64,000 nt of DNA from Deltaproteobacteria bacterium (lineage in GTDB: Bacteria > SZUA-79 > Acidulodesulfobacterales > Acidulodesulfobacteraceae): the NCBI GenBank assembly GCA_023489335.1, contig JAMDCP010000018.1:62001-126000 (forward strand). Reading direction: 5' to 3'. The number at the start of each line of letters is the position of its first letter. Position 1 is the stretch's first letter. Position numbers and translations under genes: made by a program. The notes under the pieces were generated by a model. It was not told the origin of the DNA, made no database searches, and was given only the letters and a program-made list of their open reading frames with translations. Below are positions 44,299 to 52,920 of the stretch, piece after piece.

Positions 44299-44376
44299 CA
44301 AAACAATAATTAATAAAAATTATGGTATAATAATTTTTATCAGGAAAAATGATTGTAAATTGGAGGCATGTTAATT

Positions 44377-45444
44377 ATGAAAATGCTTTTTGAGCCTGTC
44401 GATTTAGGCGGGATTAAAATTAAAAATAGAATAATGATGGCGCCTATGTGCATGTATTCGGCGAAAGACGGCGTTGTTTCGCCGTTTCATATGGCTCATC
44501 TTGGGGCTCGCGCCGTGGGCGGTGTCGGGCTTATTATAGTCGAAGCGACGGGTGTTAGTCCCGAAGGCAGAATTAGCCCCTATGATGCCGGCATCTGGAA
44601 CGAAAAGCAGGCCACGGCTTTTAAACCCGTAGTTGAATTTTGCAAGTCTTGCGGTTCGGTAATGGGGATTCAGCTTGCTCATGCGGGAAGGAAGGCTTCC
44701 ACAAATGCTCCATGGCTTGGGGAAAGGCCGTTAAAACAGGAAGAAGGGGCGTGGCAGGTTCTTGCGCCAAGCGCAATCCCGTTCGATGCAGGTTATCCCG
44801 TTCCAAAAGAAATGGATGGGGATGATATTAAAAAGGTTGTGAAAGATTTTGCAAACGCCGCTAAAAATGCTGACCTGGCGGGGTTTGATGTCATAGAAAT
44901 ACATGCGGCGCACGGGTATTTATTAAACGAGTTTTTATCGCCTATCTCAAACAAAAGAAAAGATAAATACGGCGGAAGCCTTGAAAACAGGACAAGGCTT
45001 TTATTAGAGATAATAGAGGCTATAAAAAGCGGAAGCTGGCCAAAAAACAAGCCTATTTTTGTGAGGATTTCAGCGGTCGATTGGGTGGACGGCGGCTTTG
45101 ACCTGGAATCATCCGTGGCATTAGCTAAAATGCTTAAGAACAACGGAGTTTCCCTTATCGACTGTTCTTCGGGCGGAATTTCGCCAGCCGCAAAAATGAA
45201 TATATACAGCGGCTACCAGCTCGGTTTTGCAAAAGAAATCAAGGAAAAGGCGGGGATTGCGGTTTCGGGTGTAGGGCTTATTACAAAGCCGGAATTTGCC
45301 GACTTTATATTAAGTTCCGGAACTGCCGATATGGTCGAGATGGGCAGGGAGTTATTAAGAAATCCTTACTGGCCGTTAAATGCCGCTCACAAGCTCGGCG
45401 TCGATATAGAATGGCCTAAGCAGTATTTACGGGCAAAATTATAA
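44377..45444 (+). CDS. Old-yellow-enzyme-type NAD(P)H:flavin oxidoreductase (YqjM-like)
   Basis: FMN-dependent ene-reductase of 355 residues. Motifs: MAPMCMYSA with the regulatory Cys of the YqjM class near residue 23, HAGRKAS, EIHAAHGYLLNEFLSP, the RTRLLLEI segment and the C-terminal VEMGRELLRNPYWP. The ATG at 44377 is preferred over 44368 because the ribosome-binding site (ggagg) ends only one base before the upstream ATG. Physiological substrate unknown. Confidence 0.93.
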   Translation: MKMLFEPVDLGGIKIKNRIMMAPMCMYSAKDGVVSPFHMAHLGARAVGGVGLIIVEATGVSPEGRISPYDAGIWNEKQATAFKPVVEFCKSCGSVMGIQLAHAGRKASTNAPWLGERPLKQEEGAWQVLAPSAIPFDAGYPVPKEMDGDDIKKVVKDFANAAKNADLAGFDVIEIHAAHGYLLNEFLSPISNKRKDKYGGSLENRTRLLLEIIEAIKSGSWPKNKPIFVRISAVDWVDGGFDLESSVALAKMLKNNGVSLIDCSSGGISPAAKMNIYSGYQLGFAKEIKEKAGIAVSGVGLITKPEFADFILSSGTADMVEMGRELLRNPYWPLNAAHKLGVDIEWPKQYLRAKL

Positions 45445-45462
45445 AAGGCAAAATGGCAAAAA

Positions 45463-45647
45463 GTATCCGATTTATTTATAAATACTCCGTCCATCTTTGC
45501 CTGCATAAAACCGTTGGTTTTATAAACGCAGGCAAAGATACAGCCTTTAGGCGGCATATTCACCTGCGTCAAGGGCATGCCTTGACAATCGTACAGGTGA
45601 ATATATCACCCCTTTTAAAAAAGGGGAATTAAAAATAAATCGGATAC
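45463..45647. repeat. 185-bp multi-hairpin element with 15-bp terminal inverted repeats
   Basis: Perfect 15-bp inverted repeats close the element (45463-45477 with 45633-45647). Inside are, in order: a 12-bp stem (45493-45504 with 45528-45539) with an inner 7-bp stem (taaaacc 45506-45512/ggtttta 45516-45522); a small gcc-ttta-ggc hairpin (45543-45552); an 11-bp stem (45556-45566 with 45594-45604) with an inner gtcaagg/ccttgac stem (45568-45574 with 45580-45586); and a cccctttt/aaaagggg hairpin (45609-45626). It has no coding capacity. It could be a MITE-like mobile element, an IS200/IS605-end derivative, or a structured RNA. Confidence 0.85.
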
Positions 45648-45663
45648 CTTGTAAATTAAGATT

Positions 45664-46080
45664 TTAAGGTTTTCTTACTTCAAGCTCTTCTATTCTCTTG
45701 AAATCTTTATTGTCATACGTATATACAATAGATATTCCTCTTTCGAAAGCCCAGCAGGACATTAGCGCATCTCCAAATTTAATATTTTCACTTGAATACA
45801 AAGATATAGCATCCCTGAAAACCTGTTCGTATTCGATATTAAATTCCTGCGTGTTCAATATGGCTTCTACTAATTCTTTCACTGTTATTTTGGGAATTTT
45901 ATAGACTTTTTCAAGAACATATACGGTTTCTATAATGGCAACCGGCAAAACATGCAGAACTATTCCATCATTTTTTGCATTTTTTATAAAGTTCAATGTT
46001 TTGGCCGCTTTTTCCCCGTCGTCTCTGACAAGCAGGCGTATTATCACACTTGTATCTATAAATGCCTTATTTGCTCTCAT
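45664..46080 (-). CDS. PIN-domain toxin (VapC-like)
   Basis: A 138-residue PIN-domain ribonuclease. The acidic site residues are visible: FIDTSVIIR near the N-terminus, a mid Glu (VEAILNTQE region), GDALMSCWA and the C-terminal YTYDNKDFKRI. The gene overlaps the AbrB-type antitoxin gene by 14 bases in the antitoxin-first order usual for vapBC. It probably cleaves a tRNA or rRNA when released. Both partners appear intact. Confidence 0.87.
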   Translation of the reverse strand: MRANKAFIDTSVIIRLLVRDDGEKAAKTLNFIKNAKNDGIVLHVLPVAIIETVYVLEKVYKIPKITVKELVEAILNTQEFNIEYEQVFRDAISLYSSENIKFGDALMSCWAFERGISIVYTYDNKDFKRIEELEVRKP

Positions 46081-46300
46081 TTGCGGCTTCGGTATTTGCT
46101 TTTTCTATTATGTCTTCAATGCTCATGCCGATATCAGGTAAAAAACCGGCATAATCGAAAATTGTCCTGGTTTTTTTTAAAATTATTTCACCATCTTTTT
46201 CATCGAGCAAGAGCGGATCGCCCACTTCTATCTTTAGTTTTTTTCTGATATTTTTCGGGAGCGTAATCTGCCCTTTGGGTAAAACTTTTATCGCCTGCAT
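46067..46300 (-). CDS. AbrB/SpoVT-type antitoxin (VapB-like)
   Basis: A 77-residue protein with an N-terminal swapped-hairpin AbrB domain (VLPKGQITLPKNIRKKL ... GDPLLL) that binds DNA, and a C-terminal toxin-binding tail (MSIEDIIEKANTEAAN). It overlaps the PIN toxin gene downstream and would autorepress the pair. A ribosome-binding site (aaagaggtga) lies upstream of the ATG. Confidence 0.87.
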   Translation of the reverse strand: MQAIKVLPKGQITLPKNIRKKLKIEVGDPLLLDEKDGEIILKKTRTIFDYAGFLPDIGMSIEDIIEKANTEAANESK

Positions 46301-51595: not shown

Positions 51596-52858
51596 ATGAA
51601 TAAAAACTATACCTACAAATTCAGGATATACCCAAACAAAGACCAAATAGCCTTTCTTGATGAACAAATAGGATATAACCGCTTTGTCTATAATTTCTTT
51701 CTTGAAAGAACTACGAATCTATTTAAAATTCATAATATTAAATTTAATTATTATGAATCTAAAAAAATAATACCGTTACTCAAAAAAGGTTTTCCGTTCT
51801 TAAAGCAAGCAAATTCTCAATCCTTGCAGGCAAGCCTTAAGAATCTCGATACCGCTTTTAAGAACTTCTTTCAAGGCAGGGCTAAGTTCCCTAACTTCAA
51901 GAAAAAGATAAATACCAATTCTATCGAAATCCCGCAACACTTCGCGGTAAAAGATAATTTCCTGTGTATCCCTAAACTTAAATCGGTTATTAAAATTAAA
52001 CTCCATAGGCGGTTCTATGAATTAGCAAAATCCATCAAGATAACCAAAACTCCGTCCGGCAAGTATTACGTAAATATACTTGTAAAAAAATACGACTATA
52101 CGCCGTATATGCAGGATAGAGTTAAAAATACGGTATCCGGCGCCGATCTGGGCATTAAGGATTTTGCCGTTATAACTACCGGCGCGTCTATTGCCGATAA
52201 GAAAAGTATAAAAATAGACAATCCTAAATACCTGATTAAATCGCAGGAAAAAATAATCAAGCTGTCCCGTCGGTTAGACAAAAAACAACATAAGAAAACT
52301 AAGAACGATAAGACTAAAGCGTCAAACAATTATAAGAAATGCGGCAAGAAATTAACTGAATTACACGAGCATATAAGCAATCAAAGAAAGGATTTTTCAC
52401 ACAAGTTGTCTTCAAGAACGGTAAACGATAGCCAAGTTATCGTTCTTGAAGACTTAAATATAAAGGGAATGGTTAAGAACAGGCATTTGTCTAAGTTTAT
52501 ATCCGATGTATCATGGAGTATGTTTACCGGCCAGCTTAAATATAAATCCGACTGGTATGGACGGGATATTTTCACGGTCAACAGGTTCTATCAGTCAAGT
52601 AAGAAATGTTCTACTCCGGGTTGCGGGTATATCCATAAAGACTTAAAGTTATCCGACCGTGAGTGGACATGCCCCGTATGCGGCACAAAACACGACAGGG
52701 ATATAAATGCCAGTATTAACCTATTTCTCGAAGGATTAAAAATAGGGCAGGTATTGCCCGAATTAACGCCTGCGGAGTATGCTCCGGCGGGTATCCATAA
52801 TACCGGATATAGCCGTCATACGATGAGACAGGAAGCCTATCAATTTATTGATAGGTAG
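51596..52858 (+). mobile_element. tnpB: TnpB (IS200/IS605-family RNA-guided nuclease/transposase accessory protein)
   Basis: Intact 420-residue TnpB. The N-terminal KFRIYPNKDQ is followed by the helical/wedge region and a split RuvC nuclease with all three acidic residues: Asp184 (GADLGIKD), Glu285 (VLEDLN) and Asp369 (HDRDINAS). The zinc-ribbon cysteines are Cys338, Cys343, Cys359 and Cys362. No tnpA accompanies it, so this is an IS1341-like solo element. TnpB proteins of this family are RNA-guided DNA endonucleases whose omega-RNA is transcribed from the tnpB 3' end through the right end. The C-terminal 50 residues after the last Asp are tail-like. Confidence 0.92.
52836..52855 (+). repeat. 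Right-end hairpin inside the tnpB 3' end (omega-RNA/RE candidate)
   Basis: cctatcaatt and tattgatagg form a 9-bp perfect stem with a 2-base loop, ending at the tnpB stop codon and followed by tagttcacc. A hairpin at exactly this position is typical of the right end of IS605-type elements and the scaffold end of omega-RNA; the guide would lie immediately downstream. Confidence 0.6.
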
Positions 52859-52920
52859 TTCACCAATACGAAAATTATTCCGATAAATATAAAAGTGCGG
52901 CTTTAAATATAATTAATTTA

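Follow-up and report, generated by a model that had tools for sequence, protein, structure and literature searches.

The cloverleaf-like element of 185 bases at positions 45463-45647 of the window (the whole 64,000-nt stretch of DNA analyzed here) is a stack of separable palindromic repeats arranged in three levels, or four counting inner stems. It is probably a composite assembled from short mobile repeats that are palindromic and non-coding, in which a TIR-type outer palindrome of the RAYT (TIRYT) kind carries a CGTC-tagged two-hairpin core in its loop, and the first hairpin of that core has received two nested hairpins, module A in one arm and module B in the other. The host is an acid-mine bacterium related to SZUA-79, with a 1.8 Mb genome. 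The parts of the element and its neighbors are as follows.

44368-45444, plus strand: Oxidored_FMN (old yellow enzyme type) gene, running toward the element
45460-45481, no strand: left arm of the outer palindrome, with its perfect 15-bp core GTATCCGATTTATTT at 45463-45477
45481-45630, plus strand: core, the CGTC-tagged two-hairpin repeat AATAC(T/C)CCGTC..CACCCCTTTTAAAAAAGGGGAATT, split by modules A and B
45493-45539, plus strand: module A, nested hairpin ATCTTTGCCTGC[ATAAAACCGTTGGTTTTAT]AAACGCAGGCAAAGAT, in the 5' arm of the core
45543-45552, no strand: GCCTTTAGGC, the remaining tip of the core hairpin by comparison with bare cores
45556-45604, plus strand: module B, nested hairpin ATATTCACCTG..(GTCAAGG..CCTTGAC)..CAGGTGAATAT, in the 3' arm of the core
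45609-45626, no strand: second core hairpin, CCCCTTTT-AA-AAAAGGGG
45629-45650, no strand: right arm of the outer palindrome, with its perfect 15-bp core at 45633-45647; empty versions of the palindrome occur elsewhere in the genome
45664-46080, minus strand: PIN-domain gene
46067-46300, minus strand: MazE-type antitoxin gene beside the PIN-domain gene

The anatomy described in an earlier reading of this DNA, made from the sequence only, was confirmed. Perfect inverted arms of 15 bp (45463-45477 and 45633-45647) bound the element, with the repeat lengthening to 22 nt at 91% (45460-45481 and 45629-45650), and all four proposed hairpins are present between them, those at 45493-45539 and 45556-45604 having nested stems and those at 45543-45552 and 45609-45626 completing the set. 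The proposed multi-branch fold is also borne out, as the plus strand folds as ssDNA at -50.9 kcal/mol where shuffles average -16.3 (z -12.1), with z -11.4 for the minus strand and z -10.4 for a slightly longer stretch folded with RNA parameters; for either ssDNA strand or the RNA fold, 0 of 200 shuffles were as stable. As that reading had stated, the element fits no gene: it has no coding capacity and is intergenic, lying between the 3' ends of the convergent Oxidored_FMN (end at 45444) and PIN-domain (end at 45664) genes. The PIN-domain gene and the MazE-type gene upstream of it (45664-46300, minus strand), which directly adjoin the element, are likely a toxin-antitoxin pair. An Rfam search of the window returned two tRNAs and nothing else.

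A BLASTN search with positions 45440-45670 (a 231-bp query) against the host genome yielded 132 alignments at about 41 places, and since these alignments begin and end at the same internal points, the parts of the element must occur separately. Each matched place was inspected individually, locus by locus. The loop inside the outer palindrome was found in the following states.

Empty, 8-15 nt: C3:216603-216643, C1:282904-282949, C18:4849-4895 and C21:1365-1404
Bare core, 64-65 nt
Core with module A, 109-110 nt
Core with module B, 111 nt
Core with both modules, 155 nt: the window copy, the only one carrying both A and B

The core also occurs without outer arms. The earlier proposal of a non-autonomous mobile element stands in that this is a mobile repeat, dispersed and non-autonomous, but it is a stack of independent repeats rather than one four-hairpin element. 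Plasmid records searched with the element, the generic core and a filled CGTC repeat gave no match, nor did exact-pattern scans over viral and genome contigs.

The core follows the pattern AATACCCCGTC..GACACCCCTTTT..AAAAGGGG, with two hairpins inside the outer palindrome loop, and an alignment of 25 bare copies (AATACCCCGTC-stem-loop-stem-GACACCCCTTTTAAAAAAGGGGAATT) shows how these hairpins vary. In the first, seven of nine pairs have changed on both sides in a compensatory manner (29 two-sided cells compared to 7.7 in shuffles, a number reached in 0 of 500 shuffles); the second hardly varies among copies. Such compensatory change may come from selection or from palindrome-correcting repair. 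Core variants are mixed reticulately among A-bearing, B-bearing and bare copies. A covariance model of the core found 63 matches in the host genome, some of them overlapping or partial, none in 19 genomes of the family, and 1-21 weaker matches in ten others, where the relatives of the core have shorter stems (ACCACCCCGTCAGGC..GCCTGACACCCCTCCTT..AAGGAGGGG) and, in the copies inspected, lie outside the outer palindrome. The generic core pattern was found in none of 12 other genomes (Bacteroidota, Ignavibacteria and others), so a wide distribution is not supported.

The anatomy of the core recalls the CGTC-tagged REPs, which are short palindromes of 20-40 bp with CGTC at one end, high in copy number and intergenic near 3' ends, whose stem of 8-9 bp has complementary A/T at positions 1 and 2, a loop of 4-5 nt and an unpaired CCA-like tail (Di Nocera et al. 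2013, PMC3733652). Nearly all bare cores have CCCCGTC before the stem (CTCCGTC in the window copy), and the core shares with these REPs the CGTC end, a loop of about 4 nt (mostly 3-4), complementary stem changes and a position close to 3' ends, between genes that converge or run in the same direction. Stems of the ATTTTGCC type fit the published rule and those of the AGTCCGCC type fit at position 1 only; the tail, ACACC, is a partial fit. The 63 model matches and a median distance of 16 bp from 3' ends agree with the copy number and placement of the superfamily, for a unit of 50-55 bp that includes the second hairpin. The tag places the first core hairpin near the CGTC-REP superfamily, with the stem rule holding only in part. 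Unlike CGTC-REPs, the core has a second, invariant hairpin (CCCCTTTT..AAAAGGGG), a stem whose pairing reaches into the tag (GTC/GAC), and arms that hold additional palindromes.

This placement and pairing could also be read as the marks of a transcribed RNA element, a bidirectional terminator or mRNA 3'-end stabilizer that is kept by selection and was dispersed through its usefulness. By simple ORF calls, the copies lie near gene 3' ends, with 12 of 37 between convergent genes, 22 between genes in the same direction and three between divergent ones; a T-run often terminates the outer arms, and the compensatory changes maintain pairing of the core stem. We consider this explanation unlikely, as the copies are not conserved. 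Flanks of 12 copies were searched in three genomes of the same genus (G001-G003), and at the six intergenic sites that could be aligned the neighboring genes are kept and no ortholog carries the element, which makes the composite recent in its own lineage. At one of them (C1:251903), all three species conserve a separate terminator-like hairpin that already belongs to the upstream gene. A terminator scan of the window copy found no terminator, and none of 18 relatives has the element downstream of the oxidoreductase gene. This absence, together with the dozens of copies, excludes the case in which one conserved copy would serve merely as the terminator of that gene, which the sequence-only reading had set against its own proposal. 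Moreover, purifying selection against promoter damage yields the same 3'-end bias, and such a bias is reported for REPs (PMC3733652). As the position agrees with those reports, transcript ends may be affected, although the spread of the repeats can be explained without such an effect.

Because intergenic DNA has diverged between the species, the precise junctions and target duplications of the outer layer cannot be read at these six sites, and the target duplications that the mobile-element proposal had looked to were not recognizable there. For the window copy, no empty site is readable because the region downstream of the oxidoreductase gene in the 18 relatives is not syntenic with the window. 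Just downstream of that gene, three loci (L118, L119 and L127) hold truncated tRNA-Leu-like sequences joined to a common TCCGGTTATGATTTTTTATAA.. stretch, which suggests tRNA-targeting integrations in relatives.

The third level consists of modules A and B. Module A (47 nt, outline ATCTTTNCC..GGNAAAGAT with an inner hairpin) occurs in 11 copies in the 5' arm of the core and module B in six copies in the 3' arm, each taking the place of about 5 nt of the core arm, so that neither is a clean insertion. Module B was found in the host genome and at one core position only. In the host genome, every copy of module A lies inside a palindromic target, either the core or CGTC-type repeats, and the identical 47-mer is present in G020 and G022 (another genus), again within CGTC-type repeats. 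Sister hairpins with different inner stems occur in other genomes. Among relatives, six of nine A-type hairpins lie within another CGTC-type repeat (CGTCATTGCGAG..), and of the remaining three, one lies in an integrase gene and two form an orthologous pair within a Mutator-type transposase gene. When copies are oriented by their own asymmetry, with the inner hairpin on the 5' side, the junctions read CC^..^AT, the left flank being CC (GC at two loci) and the right flank AT or AC. These junctions are constant across the core, the CGTC repeats, the integrase gene and the Mutator-type transposase gene, with no evident duplication, and this fixed polarity and these fixed junctions in unrelated targets are best explained if module A is mobile.

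Several individual loci deserve description. The A-type hairpin lies in an open frame and apparently adds about 17 residues both in the phage-integrase family gene (PF00589; L208:1501-1549, G019) and in the Mutator-type transposase (PF00872; L211:1501-1549, G010, and L210:1501-1549, G020). One CGTC-type repeat region (L048, C1:193248-193399) bears two different A-type hairpins, and at another place (L035/L216, C1:122225-122412) about 100 bp separate a core with module A from a CGTC repeat bearing a sister hairpin.

Nested palindromes might instead have grown in place, through template switching during replication and cruciform repair, and spread between loci by gene conversion with no dedicated mobility. 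Such repair can produce perfect palindromes with covarying stems, and both the small tandem duplications at arm tips and the reticulate mixing of core variants would suit it. We regard this as very unlikely, as module A keeps its sequence and its junctions across unrelated targets and across a genus boundary, which requires transfer of the module. We tentatively suggest, as a possibility short of an even chance, that module A and its sisters make up a class of their own, mobile hairpins of about 50 nt common to several genera. Their target would be hairpin DNA of other repeats that is extruded or single-stranded, so that palindromes pile up within palindromes, and their enzyme would be some ssDNA transposase or a host enzyme.

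The outermost level is the palindrome AAAAGGTATCCGATTTATTT.., which also stands empty at the four loci listed above. Its arm sequence GGTATCCGATTTATTT has 66 matches in the host genome with up to two mismatches, compared to four for the reversed control, and unpaired single arms are common. A seemingly separate outermost repeat, CAACTGTATTGTTTG, was dropped as a layer: its seven near-exact sites, at six places, are exclusively beside outer arms, and it is therefore treated as a longer arm variant. Some arm tips (L032, L039, L055, L065, L067, L204 and L163) show short tandem duplications of about 12-18 bp, made up of GATACC and its flank, which may record slippage or cleavage that was imprecise.

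In relatives, the outer arms are associated with RAYT genes, with about 12 arms in four RAYT-gene loci (11.8 kb) compared to eight in 139.6 kb of other loci, an enrichment of about 20-fold. At one of these (L163), inverted arms at 660 (plus strand) and 2507 (minus strand) flank a RAYT-type gene at 1450-2166. The RAYT-type proteins of relatives score 75 bits against NF047646 REP_Tyr_transpos (REP-associated tyrosine transposase), just below its 80-bit cut-off, and only 22-23 bits against the IS200 model. The outer arms flank a RAYT-type Y1 transposase gene in relatives only; the host's own assembly, 92% complete, holds no RAYT gene, one IS200-type TnpA (with TnpB) and a fragment, which makes present-day mobility of the layers doubtful. 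Of the earlier suggestion that TnpA or a recombinase mobilizes the element, a Y1 transposase remains plausible for the outer layer alone. Also very unlikely is a classical MITE, an IS deletion derivative moved by a cut-and-paste (DDE) transposase in trans, whose TIRs would be the outer repeat of 15-22 bp and whose inner hairpins would be mere variation: it would account for the perfect TIR-like arms, the dispersed copies of like length and the lack of coding capacity, but the outer palindrome occurs with almost no interior, the core occurs without outer arms, single arms are common and no constant-length direct repeats were found at the ends. No TSD was recognized at the six diverged sites, and no IS with such TIRs was found.

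For the stacked composite that we favor, the association in relatives suggests that the outer repeat was dispersed through single-strand transposition of the RAYT type, with a Y1/HUH transposase acting in trans. Judging from anatomy, the core would have spread by the route typical of CGTC repeats, and modules A and B would have been inserted into core hairpins, perhaps while these were extruded or single-stranded, so that hairpin DNA itself would be the target of insertion. Ready-made composites may afterwards have been amplified as units, rather than each being assembled by repeated independent insertions. Copies would be tolerated at the 3' ends of genes, and their hairpins, once transcribed, may serve there as mRNA-end structures.

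Inverted repeats around RAYT/TIRYT transposase genes have been described as TIRtrons (Di Nocera et al., PMC3733652). The outer arm resembles their TIRs in flanking RAYT genes, here in relatives, and in being a moderately abundant family often found as head-to-head pairs; it differs in that the host assembly is without RAYT, the arm pair contains a core and the published GGGGWSAS motif is unmatched. Modules A and B resemble the SMR-A elements of Haloquadratum walsbyi, which are transposase-free and insert into IS605-type palindromes without target duplication (PMC3119063), in that both are small non-coding inverted-repeat elements that preferentially target the palindrome of another mobile element. 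SMR-A elements are, however, about 110 bp long, archaeal and found at IS605/PATE ends, whereas the modules are nested hairpins of 46-50 bp that sit in intergenic repeats of a bacterium. Rickettsia palindromic elements (RPEs), as cited in PMC3733652, lie between genes and in frame inside ORFs, and the A-type hairpins recall them in being found within ORFs too, here those of mobile-element genes; the likeness is one of placement.

Some REP families and dimers had already been reported within longer palindromes (PMC3733652). What is new here is the depth of stacking, the presence of filled and empty levels in one genome, and the fixed junctions of module A across targets and genera. The movement of common bacterial palindromic repeats is poorly known, above all for the CGTC type, for which no dedicated transposase has been found (PMC3733652). 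With filled and empty levels in one small genome and constant, oriented junctions for module A, boundaries and target rule are directly testable. These results also advise caution, as what appears to be one complex structured RNA may prove to be several unrelated repeats stacked together.

Finally, the window contains a TnpB-only IS605-type (IS1341-like) element at 51596-52858, whose 3' end is cctatcaatttattgataggtagttcacc; no TnpA was found in the window. A non-autonomous IS200/IS605 derivative (PATE) was considered and rejected, the ends of this resident element (52836-52870) and of L081 being unlike the composite. The likeness to an IS605-type right end noted in the sequence-only reading is coincidental: the resident element ends in cctatcaatttattgatagg-tagttcacc and shares just TTCACC, and the two parts that prompted the comparison belong to different layers, with GCCTTTAGGC left over from the core hairpin and ATTCACC forming an arm of module B.
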